A stretch of DNA of 64,000 nt, taken from contig JAODTK010005578.1 of assembly GCA_026419785.1 (NCBI GenBank), positions 480,501 to 544,500 of the forward strand. Direction: 5' to 3'. Each line of letters starts with the position of its first letter. Positions within the stretch are counted from its first letter, which is position 1. The DNA comes from Sclerodactyla briareus. Lineage: Eukaryota > Echinodermata > Holothuroidea > Dendrochirotida > Sclerodactylidae. A model generated the notes under the pieces. It saw only the letters and a list, made by a program, of their open reading frames with translations. It did not search any database and was not told the DNA's origin. A program made the translations under genes and the position numbers. Positions 2,850-50,695 of the stretch are shown here, in pieces.

Positions 2850-4600
2850 CCACGACTAATAATAATAATAATACATCAGTATTTTGTAGAGCGCTTACAA
2901 ATCGTGGTCACGTTCAAAGCGCTTTGGAAGAGATAACTCTTGAGTTTCCACCTAAGGGCATTGAGTGTGGTTGGGATTCCTCATGTGAGAAGAGAGAGCG
3001 TTCCACAGTCTAGTGGCCTGTCATAAAAACTTCGTCCACCTCACGCTGTTGAGTCGAAAACCGAGGTTCCCCACCAATCGGTTAGAAGATCGCAGAACTA
3101 GAGTCGCGCAGGGATATACGGTACAGTCTGGTAAAATATGATGGTGGCATGTATCCATTCAGGCTTTCCATGTGAAACAAGTATTTCGTATTGAATTCTT
3201 CGTTCAACAGGTAGCCAGTGAAGGTCAGAGAGAGCTGGTGTATTTGGTCAGTCGATTGGATTGAAGTCATCGCCTCGCAGCACTGTTTTGAGCAGCCTGC
3301 AGCTTAGGGAGTAGATGTTTAGGGGCAGAACCTATCAAGATGGCATTGCCACCGTCCAACCGAGAGGTAACACAGGCATGGAGGAGCATCTCTGTGGTCT
3401 TCAGGTCAAGAACTCCTGACATGCTTTCTGATGTCTCGGAGATGATGAAAGGCTGTCTGCAGATCAATGACCTAATTCGATTTCCATGCTTACAGCCCGA
3501 CTCGAGTATAACCCCAAGGTCACGAGCGGAAGATGACCTACCCACCGTTATGTCACCAACTATAATCTCTGGAATCTTGGATCGATTGGGGTTGAGGCTG
3601 ATTGAAGACTAGTAGTGTTCCGTTTTGTGTCGTTGGGTTTCAGGTGGTTCGCTCTCATCCATGAACGAAGTTCCAGGACACAATTCTCATCGAGCTTCGG
3701 CTTCTACCTGAGATTCAGATGTCTGCAAGGCAATATCTGGGTTGTTGATCTGACGTACAATGTGAACAACCAGTTTGTGCTTTCGTCAAATAGCCGGAAT
3801 CAGGGCTGGGAAAATGAGCTTAGGGGCCCTTACTGATTCCTGTGGCACAACCGCAATACAGATTGGTTGAGCCTTGGACGATTCCCCGTTAATGACAACT
3901 ACCTGGCGTCTTTCTGTAAGGTAGGAGCGAAACCATTCCAATGCAAGATCAGAATCACCAAGGTCCCTATTCAACGTTGCCGACGAATTCCATGATGAAT
4001 CGTCGTGTTCGACAGCGGAGGTTGAAACGAGCAGCACCAAGCAGACACCTCTGCGATCCAGATCCAATACAGTTGTAAGCACGGTTTTTGTGCAATGGTT
4101 GGCACTGTAAGCAGCATGTGGCTTGTTCCTCAAGTGAGTTTTATTGGCCCGATCTTCGAAAGCAAAGTCACTAAACATATCAGGCAGCTGTTTTGGGTCA
4201 ATTGTTGGCAGGAAGACTTGGTTTACCTTTCTGATGGAACATGCCCTCAATGGTGCAAAACAGAAACCTCGGGGTTTGGGTTTCAGAGATCAAGCCTGTG
4301 TAGTAGTGGGATTTAGCCTGCCTTATTGCAGAGTTCCAATCCTGTCGATCAACTGTCAGTTTGGTCCTCCGCCACTTCCTTTCAGCTCTCCTGTACAGTG
4401 CTTCGTCGCAGTGAGTACGGTCATCGCTGTACCATGGTGCTTTGGAGCGTATTTGTCATGCTGCGGCGGCGACTTTAGTGGTGCAGCTTTCCAGCCAGCT
4501 CAGAAGCACACAGTTGTACTGCGTCAACAGAAGCAATCAAGGTTGGTGAGGGACGAGATATATATCCCTAGCTCAATGTCTCTCCGGCAGGCGTCGTGAT
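2850..4600 (-). mobile_element. Decayed L2/CR1-like LINE, 5'-truncated
   Basis: On the minus strand this is the 3' part of a non-LTR retrotransposon. Reading from high to low coordinates it has a pre-RT linker, reverse-transcriptase blocks, the RT C-terminal region, and a short 3' tail ending in an ATT microsatellite (the AAT run at 2858-2873 on the plus strand). The tail has two GCGCTT-type blocks about 30 bp apart just before the ATT repeat, a layout I know from 3' ends of L2/CR1-like LINEs in aquatic animals. The 5' edge near 4600 is where recognisable protein similarity fades; no endonuclease domain is visible, which suggests 5' truncation, common for LINEs. No target duplication was identified. 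Confidence 0.8.
2900..4600 (-). pseudogene. LINE reverse transcriptase pseudogene
   Basis: The product would be the ORF2 polymerase that copies LINE RNA at a nicked chromosomal target. Around 4250-3786 (minus) the frame reads through a finger/palm region with the block LALEWFRSYLTERRQVVVIN followed by a GVPQGS-like VVPQESV. The catalytic block normally reading LLDLSAAFD is degraded to LLVSTSAVEHDD. The YADD box near 3760 is also lost (YVRST in the nearest frame). Downstream, 3545-3267 carries ARDLGVILESGC and the thumb block LLHACVTSRLDGGNAILIG, and 3270-3082 carries a LHWLPV-type block and YKALNG-like residues. The C-terminal RLWN-type block lies near 3010-3020. At least four frame changes and several stops separate these blocks, so it is a dead copy. 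Family assignment (L2 or CR1 group) is from motif style only. Confidence 0.8.
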
Positions 4601-9772: not shown

Positions 9773-10322
9773 GAAACTTTAGGCGTCTGCGCAATAACTC
9801 TCCAGCGCTTCATCGACGATTTGAACTTGGTACACATGTCCGTCCTAGTAAAATCTCGGATGATCGAAAGTGGGCCTCGCCTGTCATGTCTGCTGCCCTC
9901 TTTTATGCAGGTCACACGAAAATACAGTTTATCCGATTACACGAAACTTGTGGGGTGGGACAAACCATGGTCCGCGAAAATCATGACAGTATTTCAATGT
10001 CACCGGATGTCCACTTTGTTTTTTTTTCTGTTTTTTGTGAAAATACAGAGTCAGTCCATTTTCATGAAATACTTTGTAGTGGGGGCAAAAGTTGGTCACG
10101 AGAACCATGACGTCACCAACGTCAAATTTGCGTTTTGTATTCATGATTTTTCTAAATTTGTCGGTTTGAGAAACTTGAACATTTTGGTCCTGAACAACAG
10201 GTAGAACATTTCAAAGTCACCAGAGTCAAAACACTGGAATAGAATTTGAAACGAGGCGCACGAGGCCATTTCTGCGGGATTACACGTCCGCGGTTTACCC
10301 TCCTGCACTGTCTAGTTTTCCA
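9773..10322 (+). mobile_element. Family E dispersed element, copy 1
   Basis: This about 550-bp sequence is the same element as the reverse complement of 29,765-30,350. Shared landmarks in order: AACTTTAGGCGT; an AATAACTCT..AGCGCTT block; CTTGGTACACATGTCCGTCC; two blocks with GTCATTT..GGTCA-type spacing; CATGACAGTATTT; and an end block GAGGCCATTTCTGCGGGATT followed by TACACGT and GGTTTACC. A partial copy is split by another element at 33,287-35,110 and others occur at 48,850 and 60,150. It has no coding capacity I recognise, so it is a non-autonomous or satellite-like element. Superfamily is unknown. Confidence 0.75.
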
Positions 10323-11874: not shown

Positions 11875-13093
11875 TCAACTCTCATAGTGATTGAATTCTG
11901 CGAGGGAGCGCTGGCGCGCGGGCGCAACTCCCATAGAGAATGAATCCTTCTAGGGGCGCGCTGGCGCAACCCTAATAGAGAATGAAGCCTTCGAGGGGCG
12001 GGCTGGGCAAACCTCATAGGGTTTGAATCCTTCGAGAGGCGCTGCTGGCGCAACCCTATAGAGACTGAATCCTTCGAGGGGCGCGCTGGCGCAACGCCTA
12101 TGAAGAGTGAATCCTTCGAGGGGCGCGCTGCGCAACCCTCATAGGAACGGAATCCTTCAAGGGGTGCCCGGCGCAACCCTATAGGGACGGGATCCTTCGA
12201 GGGGCGCGCTTGGCCGCAACCCTCATAGAGTTGGGTGAATTCTTAGAGGGGCGCGCTGCGCAACCCTCATAAAGGAGAATCTTCGAGGGGCGCACTGGCG
12301 CAACCCTCAGAGGCTTGAAGCCTTCGAGGGGCCGCTGGCGCAACACTCATTTAGAGATTAATCCTTCGAAGACTCGCTGGCGCGACCCTCCTAGAGAAGG
12401 ATCAGCGAGGGGCGCCGCTGGCGCAACGTAAGAGGTATTGAATCCTTCGAGGGGCGCGCTGGCGCAACCCTCATAGGAACGGAATCTTCGCGGGGCGCGT
12501 TGGCGCAACCCTCAAGGGACGGAATCCTTCGAGGGCCGCGAGGAGCGCAACCCTCGTAGAGATTGAATACTTCGAGAGGCGCGCTTGCGCAAACCTCATA
12601 TGAGAATGAATCCGTCAAGGGGCGCACTGGGCAACCCTCATGGGCTTGAATACTTCGGGGGGCGCGCTGGGGCAACCCTCATAGAAGAGTCCATTCGAAG
12701 GGCGCGGCTTAGCGCAACCCTCAATAGGGACGGAATCCTCCAAGGGGCGCGCTGGCGCAACCCCACCAGAGATTGGATTTAAGGGGCGCGCTGGCGCAGC
12801 CCTCATAAAGAATGAATCCTTCGAAGGGGGCAATTGGAGCAACCCTCATAGAGAATAAATACTTCGAGGGGCGCGCTGGCGCAAACCTCTTAGAAATTGG
12901 ATCCTTCGAGGGGCGCGTGGCAACCCCATGGGCTTGAATCCTCCGAGGGGCGCGCTGGCGTACCCTCTTAAAAATTGGATCCTTCGAGGGGCGCCGCTGG
13001 TGCAACCCGCATAGGGCTGGAATCCCTCAAGGGCGCGGAGCGCAACTCTCATAGCCAATTGAATAGTTAGAGGATACGCTGGGCAACCCTCAT
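11875..13093. repeat. 42-bp minisatellite array, about 29 units
   Basis: The unit is about 41-42 bp, with the plus-strand core ATCCTTCGAGGGGCGCGCTG followed by GCGCAACCCTCATAGAGA. Unit length varies by one or two bases and units differ by scattered substitutions; no higher-order order is evident by eye. Because 42 is a multiple of three, minus-strand frames stay open for long stretches and give 14-residue periodic peptides (for example CASAPLEGF). These are a by-product of the period, since three different frames do it and indels interrupt all of them. The right edge abuts LINE coding sequence at about 13,094. The unit is CpG-rich compared with its surroundings. Confidence 0.95.
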
Positions 13094-22633: not shown

Positions 22634-23777
22634 TGATCCAGGCATGCATCTCCCCCCCCAAAAGGAATGAAATGGGGGTACGCGGAGCGCCACCCATCGG
22701 TGGTTGGCGCGGATCGTACTTAGAAAATGTTGGTTTAAGAGCGCCCAGATGGCCGGGGAAATGATCCTTCCAGGGCAATTAACTGATTTAAGCTGTTTGC
22801 CAGGTTCCAAGCTTCCAAACACGTCTCAAGCCGGCAAAAAAATGTTTACGAACAAAATAAAATCTAAAAAAAATCCTCCTTTATTTTTTAGGTGGGCGCG
22901 CCGAGTGCGCCCCCCTGGATCCGTGCCTGGTGTTTTTGTTAGTGTAGTGACATTTTTTTTACATTCGGACATACGCGTAAGCGTGTTCATTTTAAACCAG
23001 CCTCTAGTCATGGGGCCAGGTAGTCGGAAGTGTGTGGCTTCCAGTATTTTGGATGGCAATATAATAACCGCTGACCAGAAGTAGCTTAGATCATTCGGCT
23101 ACGCTAAAAAAATTATTGCTGCGGTTTTTCAGCACGAAATTTCATGAAGCACTGTACATACTGTAAGCCGACTACTAGTGGCCCTAGGATGTCGGACACA
23201 GGCTTTGATACTGGATTATGATTACAATGAAGTTACACTTGTTCTATCCTCTGCCGAGGGGCAAGGGCGCACCCTGCCCCTATTGCCTCCCTGTCATCCG
23301 CCACTATGTTTTGAATGCATCCCGTGTCATTAGCTTCTAAGGCCAGTCCCTGTGCACTTATGAATAGTCACAAACTTAGGCAGTAACTTTATTTTTGATT
23401 TACACTTGACAAGGGGAAGGGCGAACCCCATAATTGCCTAAACAAATGGGCCACCCCAAGCACGAGAACTAAAAGAAGAAGAGAGATCCAGCTTGTTGGT
23501 TTTACTCTTGACCGTGAGATCACAAGCAGATGGGAATACATTCCGAGAATATGCCGCAGTGGTTCACTAACAACATATATTTAAAATAAACCATGTCTTA
23601 CATTGCAAGTCAACTTGATCACACCCTCCAGGTCTGTGTCAACGTTCTTGCTGTTGGTTCAAATCCCAAATTGCAACTCATGCACCTTCTATGGGTGTGA
23701 TTAGCCGATCATCTATCCTGAAAGTGACAATCCTAGTAAAAAAAGAGTATGATTCAGGGCGGTCGATCTGACTTGAG
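22634..23777. other. Element fragments, otherwise unassigned
   Basis: GGAGCGCCACCCATCGGTGG followed by TTGGCGCGG at 22,684-22,713 is the same hairpin motif found inside family B. GCGCCCCCCTGGATCCGTGC at 22,908-22,927 looks like the end of another element. The rest shows nothing. Confidence 0.4.
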
Positions 23778-24510
23778 AGTGGGAGACATATCGATGCAAT
23801 CTAAGCGGAGCGCCAACCATCGGTTGGCGCGAAGCGCCCTAAAGAAATTTTCAGCTTTCCATACCTCTAAGTCGCCGGAAACGGCACTTGCCAGGCTCAA
23901 TAGCACCCATCTACTGTGTGATTTGAGTGGAAAGACAAAACAAAAAAGTTGTCATTGTGCATACTAAGATTATTTAGCGCACATCACGTATGGTCATCTT
24001 TTTATTACCTTTTCTACTCTGGCTTTGTTCGCATGGTATCCAGGGTCTACCGAACGTCCCTGGTGGGATAGGCGTACGGAACCATTCAACTTTGAGAGTG
24101 CTCATCAAACATTCGGGCCCGAATTTCAAGTCCCTCATCGGAAAGTACCAGCTCGCGCGAAGCGGGCGAATTTTTTTGTTGTGTTGAAAATTCAGAGCAT
24201 TTTTTGGCCTTTCTTCCCCAAATTTCCCATTAATTTTTGCTCGAATTTTTCATCTCAGGATTTTTTGTTGGGGGGAGTCCTGCCCCAAGCCTTCTGAAAA
24301 TATTTGAGTGAACAAAATGCTTCACTTCATTATATCGCATATTTACAAAACGCCTGGTAGAAAACGCCATTGCACTCAAACCTTGAAAATGTATGCACTA
24401 GTTAGTAATCCTTCGATTTCGGCCCTAGTGGAGTCCAGATCTTCCACCTGGGATCCAGCACCTGGAATTAGTGGCCTGAAACCAATTTTCAAAAATGAAT
24501 CAGTTTAGAC
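23778..24510 (+). mobile_element. Family B non-autonomous element, copy 1
   Basis: Co-linear with 25,521-26,375. Shared order: GACATATCGAT, CTAAGCGGAGCGCC, a hairpin around CCATCGGTTGGCGCG, TTACCTTTTCTACTCTGGCT, GGTGGGA, GCGCGAAGCGGGCGAA, a T-rich stretch, AACGCCTGG..GAAAACGCC, and CTTCGATTTCGGCCCTAGT then GTCCAGATCTTC. No protein motif is found. The last 120 bp contain GGATCCAGCACCTGG-type text. Confidence 0.75.
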
Positions 24511-29366: not shown

Positions 29367-29560
29367 TTGTCTTTACCGCACTCCTCATTCGCTCACTTCC
29401 TCTTCCCTTTTTATTTTTTATTTTATTCTTACTTTGCTACTATTTTTTATTCCATCTCTCCTCCACTTTCCTCTCCTCTCTTTTTTTCCCCCCTTTCTCA
29501 TTCCCCCTCCCCCCCCCCTTCCCCATTCTCTCCCCCTTCCCTCTCCTTCCTATACCCGGG
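29367..29560. repeat. Polypyrimidine tract
   Basis: Almost only C and T on the plus strand for nearly 200 bp, ending at CCTATACCCGGGGGTTGCGC. Similar CT text ending CCTATACTTCACGAGGGGG occurs at 33,040-33,140, suggesting both belong to one element type; the GA tract at 33,401-33,912 is the complementary composition. Confidence 0.8.
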
Positions 29561-29764: not shown

Positions 29765-30366
29765 AGACATGTGGCAGCGGGTAAACCGCCCACGTGTAAT
29801 CTCGTAGAAAAGGCCATTGTTGACCTCGTTTGAAGAAAGCACATAGAAGTTTATGTCCATTTGACCTCTGGTGACTTTGAAAAAACCCTACCTGTTGTTC
29901 AACTGTAGTTCACATTCTCCAAGTTCGTTCAAATCCGACAATGTTAGAAAAATTTCGAAAAAGGGCAAATTTGCCTCTGGTACCTTGAAATTACCGTCAT
30001 GTTTTTCGGGACCAATTTTGTCCCCACTCACCAAGTTCCATGTAAATCAGACTAACTCTGTATTTTCGCAAAAAAAAAACAACGACAAATTTGACCTCCG
30101 GTGACCTTGAAAATCACCGGCATGTTTTTCGGGATCATTTTTGTCCCCGCGTCCACCAAAGTTTGATACAGAATCGCGTACCAACTCGTTTGTTTCGTGT
30201 AAAACCTGCATGTAGAGGGCAAGAACAAATCATGCATGCGCCCACTTACGCGCTTCATATCGAGATGTTTGCTAGGACGAACATGTGGTACAAGTTTTTC
30301 GGATCGATCGGATAAAGCGTTAAAGAGTAATTGCCTAAACGCCTAAAGTTTCCGGCGGCGGCGGAG
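29765..30366 (-). mobile_element. Family E dispersed element, copy 2
   Basis: Reverse-complement partner of 9,695-10,322 over about 590 bp. Matching edges: the minus strand reads AACGAGG..GGCC..TTCT.CG.GATTACACGT near 29,780-29,830, and CCGCCGCC..AACTTTAGGCGT at 30,340-30,366. The middle carries CGGCATGTTTTTCGGGA (30,117-30,133) twice in related form, so the element itself contains an internal repeat of about 125 bp. Not coding. Confidence 0.75.
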
Positions 30367-33286: not shown

Positions 33287-33356
33287 AAAATTAGGCGTTA
33301 GCTCAATAACTCTTTAACGCTTTATCCGATTGACCTGAAACTGGTACATGTCCACC

Positions 33357-34691
33357 CAGTAGCGTAGCCAGCGGTGGGCGGGGTGGGCGCGCCGCCCACC
33401 CGGGGAAAAAAAAGGGTGTGGGAATTGGGAAGAGGAAGGGACAAAAGAGGGGAAAAAGGGGAAAGGGGAAGAAAAGGAGAAGAAAACGGGAAGGAGAAAG
33501 AGGGAGGAAAGGAAAGAGAAAGGAGGAAGAAACAAACGGGCAAAAACGGGGGAGAAAGGGAAAAGGGGGGAGAAAAGGGGGGAAAAGAACAGGAAGGAGA
33601 AAGAGGAGGAAGGGAACGAGAAAGAAGGAAAGAAAAGGGAAGAAAAAAGAGGGACAAGGGAAGAGAGCTAAAAGAGAATTTACTGAAAATGGGGGGGGGG
33701 GAGGAGGGGAACCCCGAAAGGCAAACAGAATGGGGAAAAAGGAGGGAAACGGGGGAGAGAGCTAGGAAATTACCTAGAAATGAAAAGAGTAGGAAGTGGA
33801 AACGAAAAGGGGATTGACTTTTCCGGGGGGGGGGGATTTCAGGAGGAAAAGAGGAGGGAAATCAGGAAATAGAAAAGGGAAAGAAATAACAAAGGAACAG
33901 GGAAAATAAAGACGTAATTCACTCTTTCTATATAAAAAAATAGAAGACGTACACGAATCGATCAGATTCCTGGAATAATATATGTAATAAGTAGTCTTAA
34001 TTTGCGAATTTCTGCGAGATTTTTGAAGTTTGTTGGCTGTTGACGAAACTTGGGGAGATGGTTTATCTATAGTCCCAATGAATTTTACAGTAGGGACGAG
34101 GGCCCCAGAGGTCATTTAATGTTACTAATCTGTCATTAAAGGTCACTTAGGGGTCGAAAACTGTTTTATGTCCATAATAAGAGAATTGACTATCCGTGAA
34201 GGCTGGAAAGTTCACCATTGGATATAATTGTTGACCGGCATGTGTGTGACTCATGACCTCAATTTGACCTCTGTCGGGCTGGTATGTGGTTAAAGGTTGA
34301 GTCTTGAATAAATGTGCTTATTTAAGGAGGTACAGGCACAAGAAATGGAAACTGGTTATTTTTGGATATGTGATAGACAGATAGAAAATGCATTTAAGCC
34401 ATATTTTTTGCAGGGGGTAGGGTGAGTGTGAATATGCCGTGAATTGATTGTAAATAGCACCAAATTGCATCTAAGGACGTTAAAAAATCAAAAATTTCCC
34501 AAAGGGCAGGGGGAACCCCTCCCTTAGAACCTCCCCCATATTAGTCAACAAAAAAAATAATTAAGTAACCTATATGCCCCCCAATCGTCACCCCTGGCGG
34601 CGCCCCTGTTGCGGGGTCTGCGCGCGTTGATAATTGCAGTTTGAGGAAATGGTCATAGTCGCCACCCGGCTGAGGGGTGGCTACGCCCCTG
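33357..34691. mobile_element. hAT-like non-autonomous element, 1,335 bp
   Basis: Left end CAGTAGCGTAGCCAGC; right end, read as complement, CAGGGGCGTAGCCACC: 13 of the first 16 match. Both sides carry TGTCCACC (33,349-33,356 and 34,692-34,699). An 8-bp target duplication with ends starting CAG is the known signature of hAT transposons. Paralogous family E copies show the uninterrupted site, so the insertion call does not rest on the ends alone. No transposase is present. Inside are a purine tract (33,401-33,912) and a segment (33,990-34,410) that is itself family E sequence, matching parts of 40,600-40,720 and 49,930-50,110. Confidence 0.85.
33401..33912 (+). repeat. Homopurine tract of about 500 nt
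   Basis: Nearly all A and G on the plus strand, in irregular GGAA/GAAA/GGGG mixtures with few pyrimidines. It yields Lys/Arg/Glu/Gly-only frames of up to 147 codons that are compositional artefacts. Such tracts can form triplex DNA; that is a property of the base composition, not something shown here. Confidence 0.95.
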
Positions 34692-35110
34692 TGTCCACCC
34701 CAGTGGAAACTCGGATATAAGTTCGAAAGTGGGCATCACGGCAATGCTGGGGGCCGCAAATTTGCAAAATTTAGTACGCGAATGTGTATGTTAGCGGAAT
34801 TGAATGAAAGTGGTGGGTAGGGACTATAGTTGATCCGGAAAAAATGGGGGGGTCATTTCAAGGTCATCGGAGGTCAAATTTGCGAAATTTATGCGATTTC
34901 GAAAATTTGTCACATTTGAACGAAACTTGGTGGATGGGGGGTAGTTGTTCCTCACAAAGGTAAGTCATTTCAGGAGCCATTGTGGGTCAAATTTGCATAA
35001 TTCATGTCGCTATTACCTTCCATGGATTACAACAAAACTGGGTGGATGAAGTTCATCTTTCGACAAAATGGGGGTCTTTCATGGCGGTGTTAGATATTTC
35101 TTCACAATGA

Positions 35111-37489
35111 TTGCTAAAAAGCGTGGGATTAGACACGGGGCGTTTACAGCCGGACACATGTCTAGTAGTTCTTCCTAGATAGAATTTGCCGGAGAGCAAA
35201 GAGTATTCGCCTGGCAGTCCAGCGTAGGCCTATTTTGCCTTCCTGTCGGTATCCATGAAGGACAGCGGTGTAGGCCAAAGCTATTTCATTTGGGCCGTGC
35301 TGGAATAATATGTAATCTTTTCCGCAACATAACAACGCAATGCATTCTGGTCCCTAGCGCTCAGAGGGTGAAATCTGTGGTTGAAATGTGCACCCGATTT
35401 TATACTAGGTTCTAATCATATTAATGAACTAAGTGAATAAATCCTCCCTGCTTGATAAAGATAAGTTTTTTCACGATGTACCTGTAAGGCCCTCTGAATT
35501 TCCCCGACAACGCGGTTGCAACACCTAATGTTTTTATGGCGTCCTTTCTAAATCTTCAGTCAATGCTCCATTCCAGCAAAATGTGATTGTGAGTATGGAG
35601 TGAGATCGTGTAGCCCACAGGTAACGTATTTGACCTGGCTAGCCTAGCCTAATTCGTATGGTAATATTATCTTATATAGCCTTGGGCTAGGCTGAATAGA
35701 TAGATGGACATTTATTGTCCATTTCGAAATGAAACGGGGAATTGATGTGCGCCGGCAGTATAACATAGGGTAGGGACTATAAAATACAATAAAGAATCTG
35801 GGACAATATAAAAACAGTATAGCCTCTACTGGCAATGTGGCCAAAACGAATTCCATACTAGCCTACTAGGCCTAGGGGCACTTCCGAGTTTGACAGCCTA
35901 GGCTAGGCTACCATGTAGGCCTAAGTCTTTGGATCTTGCGGGGGAACTGGCCAACGTCCCTGTGGAACCAAGCGGTCAGGAAAGGTTGTGCATGCGAAAA
36001 AAAAAAGAATTAGTCATAATTGGCTGCGAGATGAACTCTGACTGCCGCTTGGAACTTTCGCTATCGTTGATGTTCACGATAGCTTCAGGAGGTTAAAATT
36101 GTTCCAATCTCTGATCGTTCTCACTTCTCAGGAGAAGGAAAACTTGTAGCAGTCTTTATTTGCTGCTAGTTCTTAGCAGGGTAAGACGCATAAACCAAAA
36201 ACACTTATTAGCTTGAAGCTCATTCTGATATGTTTTTGCAGCAAAGCAGCGTGTCCATGCACGCGGGGGGCGGACAACACGAGTGACCCGTTTCACGCAC
36301 CTCTTCGCACTTTTAGTGCTGTCTTATGAGCTATATGAGGACCGATGTAGCCTACTATATTATTATTAGGCCTATTATTATTTATCAAACACCTGACGCA
36401 TACTAGTGTTTATACCTAAACACCGGTGTTTTTTCTGAAAACCATTGTTCTAATGTCAACGTTTACGGCCCAAAATCAAAAACTTCCACAATTGACAGGT
36501 TTTGGAGATTTAATTAGCGAGTACTTGACAGAATCACTGGTTTAACCATGATAAATATGTGGTTTCAAATAGGTGTCTGGCCGTTAAAAATAGAGATAAA
36601 ATCTCATCCCTAGTTTCGAAACAGTTATGAATGTTGTTTGGAAATTATTTGAACATAAAATTGTCCTCTACTCTCCATTATCAGGCTACAAAGCCGGTAA
36701 GATTGCAGGGAAATCCCCGGAAATCGATTATGAAATACCACGTCGACACGCGGACGTGCGGAAAAATCGCTACATGACCGATTCAGAAAATGCCCGCCGC
36801 CCCGCCCATCCACGTGCATGGAAACGCCACTTACAAGCGTGTTAAGATCCTCTTGGAGGGTTAGGCTATGTGATCACTATGTTATGAATTTCTATGTATA
36901 GTGGGGGTATCATGATCCAACGGCAACTTGAGACACACACCCGGAAAAAACATAGTTAAACCGGGGGGATGTTTCTCATTGGGTTGAATTCTCCATAAAT
37001 TATCCAGCCAAATAAGGTAAGAAGAAAAAATGCAGCAACGAAAGTGCTAAGAACTGCTAAATCAACCTAAAATAGTTTTCCATTGACATACAATGTATCA
37101 ACTGCCCCAAAAAAGTCCGCTAAAATGCACAAAGAACCCTCTATCATCTGTCATTTAATGGGGGTGTAACAGACGAAAAGTTACCAAATAATTGTTTTGC
37201 CATAATTTCCCAACTGTGTCTTGTGTGTCCTTGAAAATCCGAAAAGTGTTTAACTCAAGATACCACTGTTAACTAAGCATACAAAAACGGCTTAGGCCTA
37301 AGCTGCAGGAAATTTCAAGTTTATCATTCCAAAGAGGCTGATATCTAACAAAAAATATACGGAATAATATCAAAGAGTGATTTAGACTACATAACTTCTG
37401 AAAGTTTTGTCCATGGGTGTGCTTATTTTACATTTCTAGAGCGGCAAATATTTGAAGACCCAGCCTAAGTGTTTGGCTCATGGTACCAC
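35111..37489. other. Unassigned, one LINE-tail-like motif
   Basis: Mostly unremarkable. At 35,690-35,760 the minus strand reads AATGGACAATAAATGTCCAT then CTATCTATTC. The AATAAA followed by a short tetranucleotide repeat resembles a retroelement 3' end, and TGGACATTTATTGTCCA is a near-palindrome. No RT similarity is evident next to it. Confidence 0.4.
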
Positions 37490-37710: not shown

Positions 37711-39869
37711 TACTGCTCATGGGGTTTTTCCTCTGATCTTGGTCTTAGGAACATTTATGAATAAGTGGGATACGACGTGGTCACTGATCCTAGATGGTAT
37801 AAAGGTCCTTTCAACTTGGGGTGGGGTTTGAGGTGAAAAAAGATCTAATTATTCTCTCCCTGAGTAGGATCCTTTGACGATTTTTCTAAGCCCAGTCAGC
37901 AGTAGTGTCCGCCTAGGTGCTTAGATACATAAGCAGGATGTGACCCCCCTGTTTGTAAGGTATTGTACTCCCAATTAATTGAGGGGGTGCAGTCACCAGC
38001 GGCCGAATCTGACCCTTACTGGAGGCTTTGGCACGATTGAGTGATCCACTCAGGCCTCGTTCTTACTCTACTGTGTTGCCAAACTTTGGAGATCTTTAAA
38101 ATGCCCCTAGGCTAGTGCTAAGGTGTTAGCAGTCAACGGAGCCAGCCAGAAAAATTATGATATACCTTTGTAGTGTATTGCCACAATGATATTTCTCTTG
38201 TTAATTCTACTTCACGTACAAATTTCAGAAATTTCGATTGAAATTCAATTTTTCTAACTCAAATGGGGCTGTTTTTTACAATTTCTGAAACATATTCTAG
38301 CTAGTCAATATCAGCAGAAATTTTACTGTAGTAACACTTTCCAATTGAAGGTGACGAAATCCGTCACCTCATGCCTCTCACTTCTCCCCCCGATTACACA
38401 TCCCTCTCTAACCTTCAAAACCTCATGCAAAACATTCCAATCCACTACACTGTGAAAATCCATTAGTATAAAAGTGATACTCACAAGCTAATTTTGACCG
38501 CAATAATTGATGAAAAACAATACCTTTTTTCAGCCCTGTATCTGTTTGAAACATAGTTTGTAAACAGAAGTGTGTTGCCACTCGGGCTCATTTTGGCGAT
38601 CCATATCATCCATACTTGGCACATGCAGGATTACTTAGAAAATCTCATGATTATTTCTATCTAGAGTGGAACTACGTAACACAGACAACCAAATTGAACT
38701 TGGTTGAAGGCATTAATGGAGATTCCTAACTGCTTTTGGGTAAAGATTTGGTACTTCTCAACTGCAAAGACCAATATGGGAAGATAATTCTGAATCTTTT
38801 CTTTAACTACAATAATTAGTTCCTTATGGGTATTTACATTGAGATGCACGCTTGTCAGAAACTGAAGTTGAAACAGAAAGTTGGTACTTAGCGCTTGCCT
38901 AAAAAACAGCCTAGGCCCCGCGTTGTGAACGCAGGCTGTGGTAGGGTACTAAAGACTGCTGCCGGCGGAGGGTTGGGGGGGGGAGGGAGGATGGCATGTC
39001 TTGGCTGTTGGAAAATAAAAGGCAATTTGAAAATGAAGGAAATGATTTTAAAAGGCAAAGAGCCGGGCTGCAAAGGGGATTTTAGAACAGTTAAGTTGGA
39101 TTTGGGGTCAAAGAAGTGAGTGGACTGAGCGATAAAACTTCAAATTTGGGTATTCTTGGAGAGAAGAGTGGGCGGGCGGGGGGGGGACTAGCAAGGAAAA
39201 AAGCCAATTGAGGGACCACTTTCTTTTGCCAAACTCAGTAGGTAGGGTCTATGACATTTTCGGGATCTGATGTGTTTGATGTTCAGGGAATTTGGCGAGG
39301 ACCACTTTGTGGCATGCGCCTGGTTTGTAGATTTCTTTCTTCTTTTTAAAGGAATTGAACATTGTTCCTTTTGGTCCCGCTGAATGAAATTCAGGAAGAG
39401 ACTCGGGTCCACTATGGCGTGTGTGTGTGTTGGATCGCACCCACTTTCTTGTTAGCGGGATTTTCGCAAACCGGTGCGGCCGTTTATGACAAATTGTGGT
39501 GTAGCACCGGGGTTGGGTGTACACGATCTGATTAGTTTTGGGCAAAAAGTTCGTTAATTAAGTTGGTAAGTGGCTTATTTATGTAATTTATCGTTCGTTT
39601 GACCATGACGAGCGTCTGCTGAACTTTGAAACTAGTGGTTGTGTGTGGTAGTGAATAATAGGCAACCGACCAATCGCGCAAAGGGAGACACTTTTGGCGA
39701 TCGCATTGTTTGTCCCTCCTTCCCAGGGCCCCAGCGGGCGGGATGTTGATCCTGGTTTGCGTGGACGCTTGGGAGAGTTTTACTCGGACATTGTTGGCAG
39801 CGATCTGAATTCTAGAGGAGAAAAGCCCTTTTTGTCTCGCCTGAACTTGGTTCAAGGAGAGACATTAGT
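37711..39869. other. Unassigned sequence
   Basis: No gene or repeat is recognised. A G-rich patch lies at 38,955-38,990 and another at 39,165-39,188. Confidence 0.5.
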
Positions 39870-39930
39870 GGTCACTCTGTGTGTGTGTGTCTGGGTATGT
39901 CCGTCCGTCTGTCTGTCCGTATGTGCGCTT
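39870..39930. repeat. TG / TCCG low-complexity tract
   Basis: TGTGTGTGTGTGT followed by GTCCGTCCGTCTGTCTGTCC. It precedes family E-like sequence, as GT tracts also precede the 300-bp array at 41,200 and the A units near 46,370. Confidence 0.85.
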
Positions 39931-40569
39931 AGATATCTTCGAACCGTGGAAGCCAATCATGCTGGGACCTTTTTGTGGACGTGCGCCGTGAAGAGTTGCC
40001 GATTGTGCATCCACTTTTCTTTCCCAAGGAGACCATACTTTCGTGTTATACCAGCACATTTCGGCCGTTTGGCAGAAATTGTGATCGTAATTCAGGTGTT
40101 TAGGATAATATGTAGGACGTATTCAGGATCATTACAACAGGAAATAGGACCATGTTCCTATTTGAAAAGAACCAGCATTGGTTTGACATAGTTTGGGAAT
40201 GTAGGGGTGTTTTATTAAGCTAGGATTCCTGACCAAAATGGTTTAATTACTCCCAACAGAAAACTGAAGATTTGGGGTGCACCCATTTCGGCAACAATCG
40301 CGGAGCCAGAATAATGTGGGCCCAGTCGCGGCCGAACAGAGAATCAGAATATAGGTTTTGTCGAATTAAGGCGCTTTTAGGGCACCGCGGTTATCACGAA
40401 AAACACGACGGCCATGGCCGCAATGGCGTCGCTTAAATGCCAAGCCCTGCAGGCCGTCTTTTTTTTTTTTTTGGGGGGGGCGCGATGACAGGCCGTCCAA
40501 ATGACGTGCTGGCAGCTCGCTGGCAAACCTTGCCGTTCGGGGGATATAACAACTATACAGTGTACACAA
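39931..40569. other. Unassigned sequence
   Basis: Contains a T16 and G8 run at 40,459-40,482. The 165-codon plus frame at 39,694-40,191 crosses the GT tract and shows no domain. Confidence 0.45.
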
Positions 40570-41100
40570 ACTGATAGATTTCCTGGCATTATGATGATAA
40601 TATGATGATATCTTGAAGTTCGTTGGGATTGGACGAAACTCGGTGAGTGGTTTATATGTCCCAATAAATTTCCAGTAGGGATGAGGTCACCAAAGGTCAT
40701 TCATGTACTAATTTGATTACTAGTCTAATTTGCATAATTTATTGCCGATTTGAAGTGGTGAATTTCATGAAACTTGGGGGAGATGGTACGCATTGATCAT
40801 GATAAATTTAACAACAGTAGCAAAGGCAGTCAAGGTCATTTAATGGAAAATATGCATAAAATTATGCAAAGATTTGTTAATGGCAAGTAACAATTGGAAT
40901 GAGTGCCGGTAGGGTGCTCGTAGAGATTTGTCATGGTTAATGTGGGTTCATGGGATCAAACAACATCTAAATATGAGGTCGAAAGGTCAAAGGTAAAGTT
41001 ATAAGAAAATGTGCTTATATTTGGATACAGTGCAAAGAAATAAAAACTGTCAAATTTGGGGTGATTGATAGAGCTCTGTGTGCTTCATAGCCGAAACCAC
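40570..41100 (+). repeat. Family E-type sequence
   Basis: TTCGTTGGGATTGGACGAAAC, TATATGTCCCAATAAATTT and GTAGGGATGAGGTCACC at 40,617-40,690 match 34,030-34,110 inside the hAT-like element. Later TGTGCTTATATTTGGATACA and ATAGAGCTCTGTGTGCTT (41,009-41,085) match 50,070-50,146. It leads directly into the 300-bp array. Confidence 0.65.
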
Positions 41101-41224
41101 TCCCGCTTGATCTGACCCTGGTCTTCAAGTTAAAGGGGCAGTTTTTAGTTCCTGACGAAGCGGAGGGATCTATTACCGTCATGCAGTGTGTAGTCTGTTC
41201 TGTGTGTGTGTGTATTGTGTGTAT

Positions 41225-47056: not shown

Positions 47057-47220
47057 CCGGACAATTCCCACCCGGACAATTTCCCCCGGGACAATTTCCA
47101 CCCGGACAATTCCCCCTCAACGGAATGTTTCTATGGTCAGAATTAGGGTTAGGTTTTAAAGTTAGGTCACGTTTGGTGGGAATTGTCCAGGTGGAAGTTG
47201 TCCGGGTGGGAGTTGTCCGG
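47057..47220. mobile_element. Foldback element in unit B, copy 1
   Basis: CCGGACAATTCCCACCCGG at the left is the inverted partner of CCGGGTGGGAGTTGTCCGG at the right. Both arms contain tandem ACAATTCCC/ACCCGG modules: four on the left, three on the right. Small non-autonomous foldback elements look like this; no coding. Confidence 0.8.
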
Positions 47221-47935
47221 CAACCGTTAAACTTGCCTCACAGTACGCCAAAGATGGCCTTGATTTGACAGCATTCTCAGTTGGGCATTGTGATTCAATG
47301 TCGTGTTCGACTGAGCTAAGAGTTTGGTGTGTTGTTGTGTGTGTGTGTGTGTGTGTTGTAACAACTGTGAAGCGAGGACATTCATATGAAAAACACAACC
47401 ACATGTTTGTATAAGGGGCTAGCAGTACAAGTGTATGCTAAGTAACACAGGCTGCTCAGGAATCTTAGTATCAATCCCCTGTCAGTCCTTGGTGGGGTAG
47501 GGGTAGGTCCACTTGTGTCGTCCCATGGTTTGAAAGTATTTGTATGTGTCCTCGGCCAGCAGGTGTGAACCTCAGTTTTAGACCAGAAAATCACACACTT
47601 TCTCACACTAAACCACAATATTCAACTTTATAATTTCTAACTAACATTTTTTTTTGGACCATGTATATTCGTGTGAAGGGCTAGCAGTACAGTGTATGCT
47701 AAGTAACACAGGCTGCTCAGGAATCTTAGTATCAATCCCCTGTCAGTCCTTGGTGGGGTAGGGGTAGGTCCACTTGTGTCGTCCCATGGTTTGAAAGTAT
47801 TTGTATGTGTCCTCGGCCAGCAGGTGTGAACCTCAGTTTTAGACCAGAAAATCACACACTTTCTCACACTAAACCACAATATTCAACTTTATAATTTCTA
47901 ACTAACATTTTTTTTTGGACATGCTATATTCGTGA

Positions 47936-48110
47936 CCGGACAATTCCCACCCGGACAATTTCCCCCGGGACAATTTCCACCCGGACAATTCCCCCTCAAC
48001 GGAATGTTTCTATGGTCAGAATTAGGGGTTAGGGTCTAAAGTTAGGTCACGTTTGGGTGGAATTGTTCCAGTGGAAAGTTGTCCGGGTGGGAGTCGGTGG
48101 GAGTGTCCGG
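47936..48110. mobile_element. Foldback element in unit B, copy 2
   Basis: Same element as 47,057-47,220, carried by duplication of unit B. The right arm has an extra GTCGGTGGGAGT segment and several single-base changes. Confidence 0.8.
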
Positions 48111-48849: not shown

Positions 48850-49600
48850 TTGGAGTGGCCCGCACACGTAGCGCTCTATTCTTGACACTTATCGATTGAC
48901 CCAAACTGGTACACATGTCCGTATGAGTCAAATCTCGGATATAAGTTCGAAACTGGGCTATATCGTAAATTTGTTGCCCTCTATTTTGCAGGGTTTTGTC
49001 GCAAAATTTTCAGTTGTGCGATTTACGAAACGTGGTGGTTTTTGTGGGTAGTGTTGGAGCCGAAAAAAAAAAGAAATGGCGAGAATTTCAAGGTCATCCG
49101 AGGATCGAGTTTGCATTTCTTGGCAAGAGTAGTAGCCTAATTATAGCATAATGTGATGTGATATTTAAAACTTAATTGGATTTTTATGAACTTGTGAAAG
49201 GGCCAACTATCGGGCGAGTATTTTCATAATGTGGCCGCCGAGGTCCATGGAGGTCATCTTGCATGCTAATTTGCATAATAGTTGGCCAATTAGCAATCAG
49301 GGCAAATTATATATAAACTTGTTGGATTCCCCCGAAATGGTGAGTTTAGGACATTCTAACAGTCCTGATAAATTATCAATTGCGGTGAAAATCACTGAAG
49401 GTCCTTATGTGTGTGATTTACATAGTGTTCGCATAATTAGAATAATAATGCAATTATTTTCTCAACGTCTAGGGATTTTGACGAATCTTTGTGAATAGGA
49501 CCTACTACCAGTCCCCCTGATAAATTTATTCAATAGCATCAGGACGGCACGGAGGGTGTGTAAATTTGTGGGACTAATTGCATATTAGTTGTCCTATCAG
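48850..49600 (+). mobile_element. Family E element, copy 4
   Basis: GCGCTC..ATCGATTGACCCAAACTGG, TACACATGTCCGTATGAGTC and AAATCTCGGATATAAGTTCG (48,870-48,947) match copies 1-3. It then carries AATTTCAAGGTCATCCGAGG (49,083-49,102) and further TTTGCAT..GGTCAT blocks. It runs into the tandem block at 49,600. Confidence 0.7.
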
Positions 49601-50695
49601 TCAAAATGATGAGTTTAATAATTTTTTAGCAATAACATTGGACATGTTCATTGGAATGCAATATGCTTCTAGGACAGTGGATTGCATACATGCATGGAAC
49701 AATTTTTATAAGAGCCGCCATGTCATTGAAGGTCATTTAAAGGTCACTTAGGGGTCAAAAAAACGGATCCAGTACTTTTTCGGCAATAATAATAGCACTG
49801 GGTGTGTTCATCAGAATGCAAATGCTCCTAGATTGAATGTATCACATGGCGAGTAACATTCTCATGAAAAATGTCACCATCATTAATTCATTCGGGGTCC
49901 TTAGTGGTCGCAAAACTGTTTTTTTGCGAGAATCGTAGAATTGGAATTCCGCGAAGGCGGATGTTCACCATTGGATATAATTGTTGACCTCATGTGGGTG
50001 ACCTCTGACCTGAATTTGACCTCTGTCCGGGTGGTCATGTGGTTAAAGGTCGAACTCTTGAAGTAAATGTGCTTATTTAAGGAGTTTACGGAAAAAAAAA
50101 AGAACTGGTTTATTTTTGGATATGTGATAGAGCTTTGTGTGCTTTATGGAGGGAAAACAATCCCGCTTCGATCTGTTTACTTTTTTTTAGTAGTTCCAGG
50201 GTTCAAATTTCAATTTTATCCCTTTTTCGCAATAACAGTGGACGTGTTTCATTGGAATGCAATATGCTTCTAGAGTGGATCATCACATGGATGTAACAAT
50301 TTTCATAAAACCCGCATGTCATTGAAGGTCATTAAGGGTCCCTTAGGGTTCAAAACCGGCGTTTTATAGGATACTTTTTCCGACAATAGCACTGGTGTGT
50401 TCATCAGATGCAAAATGCTCCTAGGAGGGAGTGTATCACATGAAGCGGAACAATTTCATAAAAAACGGTCATATCATTAAAGGTCATTCGAGGTCACGTA
50501 GGAGTCAAAAAAAACGTTTTGTGGCGATAACGGAGAATGATATCTGCGAAGGCTGGGATGGTTCACCATTTGTGATATAAGTTGTTGGACCTGCATGTGT
50601 GTGACCATTGACCTGAATTAATTTGACCTCTGTGGGTTGGCCTGTGGTTAAGGTGCGGGAATCTTGAAAAATGTGCTTATTTAAGGACGCGCACC
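49600..50695 (+). repeat. 595-bp higher-order tandem duplication
   Basis: Two halves, about 49,600-50,200 and 50,205-50,695, share the same order. Each has two 150-bp subunits (GCAATAAC..TGGAC.TGTT, CATTGGAATGCAATATGCTT, CATGTCATTGAAGGTCATT, CTTAGGGGTCAAAA), then TTCACCATTGGATATAATTG, TTGACCTCTGT and ATGTGCTTATTTAAGGA. For example TTCACCATT occurs at 49,967 and 50,562. The subunit-plus-end order also occurs once at 34,110-34,340 within the hAT-like element. Confidence 0.8.

Follow-up and report, generated by a model that had tools for sequence, protein, structure and literature searches.

The window, by which we mean the whole 64,000-nucleotide stretch of DNA that was analysed (contig C2821:480501-544500), contains a 1,335-bp hAT-like element that interrupts a copy of a repeat called here family E. 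The element, its borders and the two halves of its host repeat are laid out as follows:

33291-33348, plus strand: left half of host repeat family E, from alignment of the rejoined flanks
33349-33356, plus strand: left target-site duplication (TSD) TGTCCACC, with the same letters as 34692-34699
33357-34691, plus strand: non-autonomous hAT-like composite element of 1,335 bp, from paired ends, a scan of the window and empty sites
33357-33370, plus strand: left terminal inverted repeat (TIR) CAGTAGCGTAGCCA, type O
34678-34691, minus strand: right TIR CAGGGGCGTAGCCA, type O
34692-34699, plus strand: right TSD TGTCCACC
34700-34882, plus strand: right half of host repeat family E, from alignment of the rejoined flanks

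The two copies of TGTCCACC on either side of the element agree at 8/8 positions. The element begins with CAGTAGCGTAGCCA at its 5' end and finishes with TGGCTACGCCCCTG at its 3' end, and its TIRs pair at 12 of the 14 outermost bases and at 22/30 over a longer span. The sequence-only reading of this DNA, which had described a 1,335-bp element with CAG..CTG ends and an 8-bp duplication at this very place, was thus accurate. We scanned the window for CAG...CTG pairs flanked by identical 8-mers (TIR of at least 11/14, spacing of 60-5,000 bp) and obtained this element as the sole result. The same pattern was absent from all Markov-simulated windows (40 + 40), and with none in 80 an 8-bp repeat that arose by chance is ruled out. 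We saw no transposase frame within the element, as had also been claimed. For the most part, its longer frames translate low-complexity purine/pyrimidine sequence, and six of its frames gave no Pfam match at 0.01. Six other frames of the window had no Pfam match at 0.01 either, and the window as a whole gave no Rfam match at the gathering threshold.

Several features elsewhere in the window are recorded here in their own right. Two inverted repeats of ~45 bp (ACTAGGCGTACTCTATTACCTATATAGGCGTT...) at 967-1012 and 2042-2087 lie ~1.1 kb apart and perhaps represent another DNA transposon; the palindromic CTATATAG in them resembled an 8-bp duplication, yet it belongs to the arms. Blocks of 15-bp CCGGACAATTCCCAC units at 47057-47220 and 47936-47995, one of them inverted, flank a 2-copy 261-bp array (47416-47934), and a tandem array of a 42-bp unit (~27 copies, 72% matches) occupies 11913-13054. 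A minus-strand frame at 3786-4289 has, by eye, the look of a decayed non-LTR reverse transcriptase and gave no Pfam match at 0.01.

Family E is also present in the window in three uninterrupted copies:

9779-10018, plus strand: uninterrupted family E copy, paralogous empty site
30086-30346, minus strand: uninterrupted family E copy
48893-49114, plus strand: uninterrupted family E copy, paralogous empty site

When the flanks of the element are rejoined, they run through the junction at all three copies with ~64-66% identity (E 3e-12 to 1e-13). The first and the last had been named as empty sites from the sequence alone and are indeed uninterrupted, while the minus-strand copy had been missed. 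For the genome-wide search (319 Mb in 3,171 contigs) we used the rejoined 388-nt query and scored 40 of 2,637 candidates; the counts from this and the other genome DNA searches are lower bounds. Besides the locus itself, 39 of the 39 scored primary places run across the junction without a break, at 77-86% identity, and the two family E halves are joined elsewhere in the genome just as had been proposed. Six uninterrupted genome places were read over the junction, and each has a single target, TGTCCGCC in five of them and TGTCCGGC in one. The insertion into a family E copy doubled its 8-bp target, and a single window shows the insertion, the target duplication and paralogous empty targets together. 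The target itself follows neither of two group consensus sequences, nTnnnnAn of the Ac group and nnnTAnnn of the Buster group: TGTCCACC is at odds with both T2 and A7 of the former as well as with the latter. In a set of 11 exact TSDs drawn from different subfamilies, T2 is found in six, A7 in five and both in three, and the Buster consensus fits 1/11.

The end motif was then compared across the genome. The right-end 14-mer CAGGGGCGTAGCCA has 72 exact copies, compared with 0 for the reversed pattern, and a close variant of the left end, CAGTGGCGTAGCCA, has 387, compared with 1 for its reversed pattern. Among the places listed for the two patterns, which for CAGTGGCGTAGCCA are 100 of the 387, four close convergent exact O-end pairs were spotted by eye. 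One O-type element of 1,094 bp (L078) has the exact TSD CGAGCAAT, and another of 1,249 bp (L079) has a TSD at 7/8. The duplication is absent from the close pairs L077 (4/8) and L067, so that the proposed coincidence of CAG ends with 8-bp TSDs holds for the former two loci and fails for the latter two. Of nine loci at CAGTGGCGTAGCCA sites, none could be paired with a right end plus duplication over ~2.4 kb; one of the nine is among the four pairs above, and the other eight had no end pair within this distance. The sequence directly inside the O 14-mer varies between loci, and the O terminus is therefore probably common to several subfamilies.

A CAG start is a known trait of hAT ends and is shown by both ends of the window element. 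An 8-bp TSD and short TIRs of 10-25 bp, both given for the hAT superfamily in a published description (PMC3942097), are likewise found here. For Tip100, the consulted excerpt reports the TIR CAGGGGCGGAG and 8-bp duplications (PMC12511174). The right end of the window element, CAGGGGCGTAG, is identical to this TIR at 10/11 bases and the left end, CAGTAGCGTAG, at 8/11 (PMC12511174), which supplies the Tip100-like TIR looked for in the Tip group. Within hAT, the letters of the end motif indicate the Tip100 type. The original hAT assignment stands as far as the TSD, the ends and the Tip100-like terminus are concerned; it was incomplete in that pieces of two other repeats between the ends, R and B, had gone unnoticed. 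The interior is divided as follows:

33357-33929, plus strand: outer type-O left arm, purine-rich, from alignment to the second composite and L088
33929-34378, plus strand: fragment of repeat R, the 5' part of R, from the whole-element search
34384-34608, plus strand: 3' part (225 bp) of a type-B hAT element whose first ~90 bp are missing, from alignment to L044
34595-34608, minus strand: inner type-B right end TGGCGGCGCCCCTG, retained within the element
34609-34691, plus strand: outer type-O right arm, also in L002, and without a preceding B in L086, L087 and L088

The whole-element query (40 of 2,732 candidates scored) returned 138 matches, nearly all of them to the middle, 33929-34378, which forms part of repeat R in seven loci (L010-L016). 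Tandem units of ~594 bp or a multiple of it were called in six of these seven, L013 being the exception, and in L011 R extends over ~4.6 kb. Compared with L011, the left border of R falls within 4 bases in 6/7 comparisons, including that with L009, and later in L014. By eye, the R ends TGTCTCGCCTG / CAGGCGAGACA look like an inverted repeat, and a literature search for these end letters returned no paper with a matching string among those listed. The idea that R is part of the hAT family was dropped, as the R copies in L010-L016 have different borders. More pieces of R lie in the window at 39828-40039, 40531-41109 and 49614-50688, and the last of these retains nearly two tandem units of ~595 bp.

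The adjoining stretch, 34384-34608, corresponds in alignment to the 308-bp type-B element L044 from position 90 to 308. As the match begins at position 90, the B element in the window is without its first 90 bp, and what is left of it is fused to R. Type B is a second hAT family. We cut out 28 type-B loci, in 24 of which the right end was recognised by script. Exact 8-bp duplications with end-like starts were found in L020 (1,626 bp), L028 (1,616 bp), L035 (524 bp), L044 (308 bp) and L045 (369 bp); together with the exact duplication of L078 and that of L079 at 7/8, they are the relatives with 8-bp duplications at related ends that had been anticipated. L023 and L043 have one TSD mismatch each, and the terminus of L043 is atypical for B. 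L019 has a one-mismatch TSD match without an end-like start, and in L026 a 7-bp overlap was seen by eye. Sixteen of the 24 loci have no TSD-paired left end within ~1.5 kb, and longer upstream stretches of ten loci gave 0/10 left ends (duplication with at most 1 mismatch, TIR of at least 8/14).

With the right arm as query, we scored 40 of 150 candidates and obtained 41 matches, among which the window and L002 alone reach the outer end. The other 39 do not extend past query position 234: 18 stop at 227-234, which corresponds to the inner terminus at 34608, and 21 stop earlier. Many of the matches finish in ...GGCGCCGCCCCTG and continue into unrelated sequence. Because all right-arm relatives except L002 stop by 34608 and the whole-element query found R, a simple one-family hAT-N element is ruled out. 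On these alignments the element is a composite, in which broken R and B pieces lie within a type-O hAT. Its single unusual feature is the second hAT right end kept inside it: the inner B end and the outer O end have the same orientation, and the B end lies 83 bp inside the O end.

The same failure of the 39 other right-arm matches to reach the outer end could mean that a B-type hAT element and its flanks were joined by ordinary rearrangement, with the outer CAG/CTG ends and the 8-bp repeat being coincidental. We regard the chance of this as close to nil, given that the 80 simulated windows contained no chance pair, that the other scored primary family E places are all uninterrupted and that the outer right arm occurs with the same or a near-same terminus beside different flanks in L002, L086 and L087. 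We conclude, with a probability of about 0.92, that a Tip100-like non-autonomous hAT transposon entered a family E copy and duplicated the 8-bp target TGTCC(G/A)CC.

The outer arms also occur elsewhere. With 34600-34699 as query there were four candidates, all of which matched: the window itself, L086, L087 and L088. L002 is absent from them, though it was found by the longer right-arm query. L086-L088 start matching just outside the B terminus, and an additional 20-37 bp inward are common to them and absent from the composite. The 2.1 kb read around each of these loci yielded neither R nor B, and the terminus of L088 is worn. On the strength of these alignments, L086-L088 may be read as the outer-arm state that preceded the entry of B. 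The outer left arm matches the second composite at 77% from element position 17 onwards and L088 weakly, at 70-71%. A pyrimidine-rich stretch of the window, 29401-29557, matches the purine-rich left arm in reverse orientation, for which low complexity alone is a possible reason.

The second composite, L002, lies in a 9-kb region (L009) and has the same order of outer left arm, R piece, B piece and outer right arm. It is 77% and 83% identical to the window element, and by eye its R/B fusion point is the same. The gap between the matching arms is 546 bp in L002 as against 13 bp in the window. The left end of L002 is worn, and its duplication, read by eye as ATGCGCC vs ATTGCGCC, is imperfect. L009 has no match to the flanks of the window element at the corresponding places; additional short matches of L009 elsewhere in the window fall at 36373-36739 (opposite orientation) and 23770-23851.

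These observations bear on whether L002 arose from the window locus by segmental duplication, in which case the composite would never have travelled between the two loci as one piece. Such a duplication would agree with the imperfect TSD of L002 and with the finding of just two composites among the scored candidates. It is nonetheless unlikely to a high degree, as the similarity begins 17 bases and stops 3 bases from the ends of the window element, and no shared sequence exists outside the element within ~3.5 kb on either side of L002. Instead, the same segment order between unrelated flanks suggests that the composite package was probably mobile as a unit. Similarly, as L002 shares both the order and the fusion in surroundings unlike those of the window, the composite is probably older than its arrival at the two known sites.

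A plausible series of events would begin with an ancestral type-O element that took in both a type-B hAT element and repeat R. A single deletion would then have brought the 5' part of R up against the 3' part of B, and the resulting composite would have moved as a single unit to at least two sites, after which the window copy would have lost ~530 bp relative to the L002 copy. Movement would be by cut-and-paste, with a hAT transposase acting in trans and recognising the CAG(T/G)(A/G)GCGTAGCCA ends. This would place the activity of the repeats in a relative order: family E is older than the insertion of the composite into it, and B and R entered O before the composite arrived at its two known sites.

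With regard to the source of such a transposase, the hAT dimerisation domain PF05699 has 38 matches in the genome (147/147 candidates scored) and none in 14 control genomes, the make-up of which is not given. Ten of the 38 loci were examined. An exact 8-bp duplication together with a TIR of at least 10/16 was found in four (L047, L049, L052 and L053), compared with 4/1,000 simulated loci, and this combination is missing from the remaining six. Two of the four start with CAGGGGCGG:

L047, 952-2510: short hAT element of 1,543 bp with a PF05699 match, an exact 8-bp TSD and CAGGGGCGGCTG ends
L049, 943-2508: short hAT element of 1,550 bp with a PF05699 match, an exact 8-bp TSD and CAGGGGCGGCTG ends

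On a further contig, C1171, the C-terminal part of a transposase appears as a 113-aa open frame that matches PF05699 (E 1.7e-6), and 241 bp past this frame lies the outermost base of an end with the same letters as the right 14-mer of the window element. In the 4.3 kb upstream we found no left end accompanied by a matching duplication, and no complete transposase with both O-type ends was found in the genome loci examined. The autonomous hAT relative foreseen by the sequence-only reading is thus represented by a right end beside PF05699, and a complete partner with both ends was not among these loci. Since PF05699 loci carry TSDs and an O right end stands beside PF05699 in C1171, it is plausible that a hAT transposase acts on the element in trans.

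The same loci are informative about the superfamily. As 8-bp duplications are not exclusive to hAT and are made by P and Zisupton elements as well, the insertion might have been made by another superfamily of this kind. This is very improbable: CAG(G/T)GGCG ends, PF05699 and exact 8-bp duplications coincide in L047 and L049, and in C1171 the O right end lies beside PF05699. Furthermore, in the excerpt consulted the Tip100 TIR differs from the right end of the window element at 1/11 bases (PMC12511174).

Two right ends in one element might also be viewed as a fossil of end switching, in which hAT elements swap transposase partners, although we consider this improbable. If it were true, two hAT subfamilies could each move the element, or alternative right ends could be used, and the segment between the B and O ends could be gained or shed. 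In any case, the inner second hAT end is a small natural test of how strict hAT transposases are in their choice of ends.

In summary, the insertion is clear yet ordinary transposon biology. Short hAT derivatives without a transposase are already known, as are transposons that carry pieces of other transposons. The comparisons that follow draw on the consulted portions of the three sources. Tip100, of the hAT Tip group in Ipomoea purpurea, is alike in its 11-bp TIR (10/11) and 8-bp TSDs, but it is 3.8 kb long and encodes an 808-aa transposase (PMC12511174), whereas the window element is without a transposase frame and holds fragments of further repeats. The BuT2-derived MITE-like elements of Drosophila willistoni, also of the Tip group, have similarly lost the transposase region and kept the outer sequences, and they often have 8-bp TSDs (PMC3942097). 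However, they are described there as internal deletions of an autonomous element (PMC3942097), whereas the window element has also received pieces of other repeats. The mammalian MER6 MITE is alike in being a non-autonomous DNA transposon with a V-SINE fragment (PMC6887750). It is traced to a Mariner element and a V-SINE (PMC6887750), whereas in the window two repeats are nested in a hAT element, and one of the two likewise belongs to hAT and has an end of its own.
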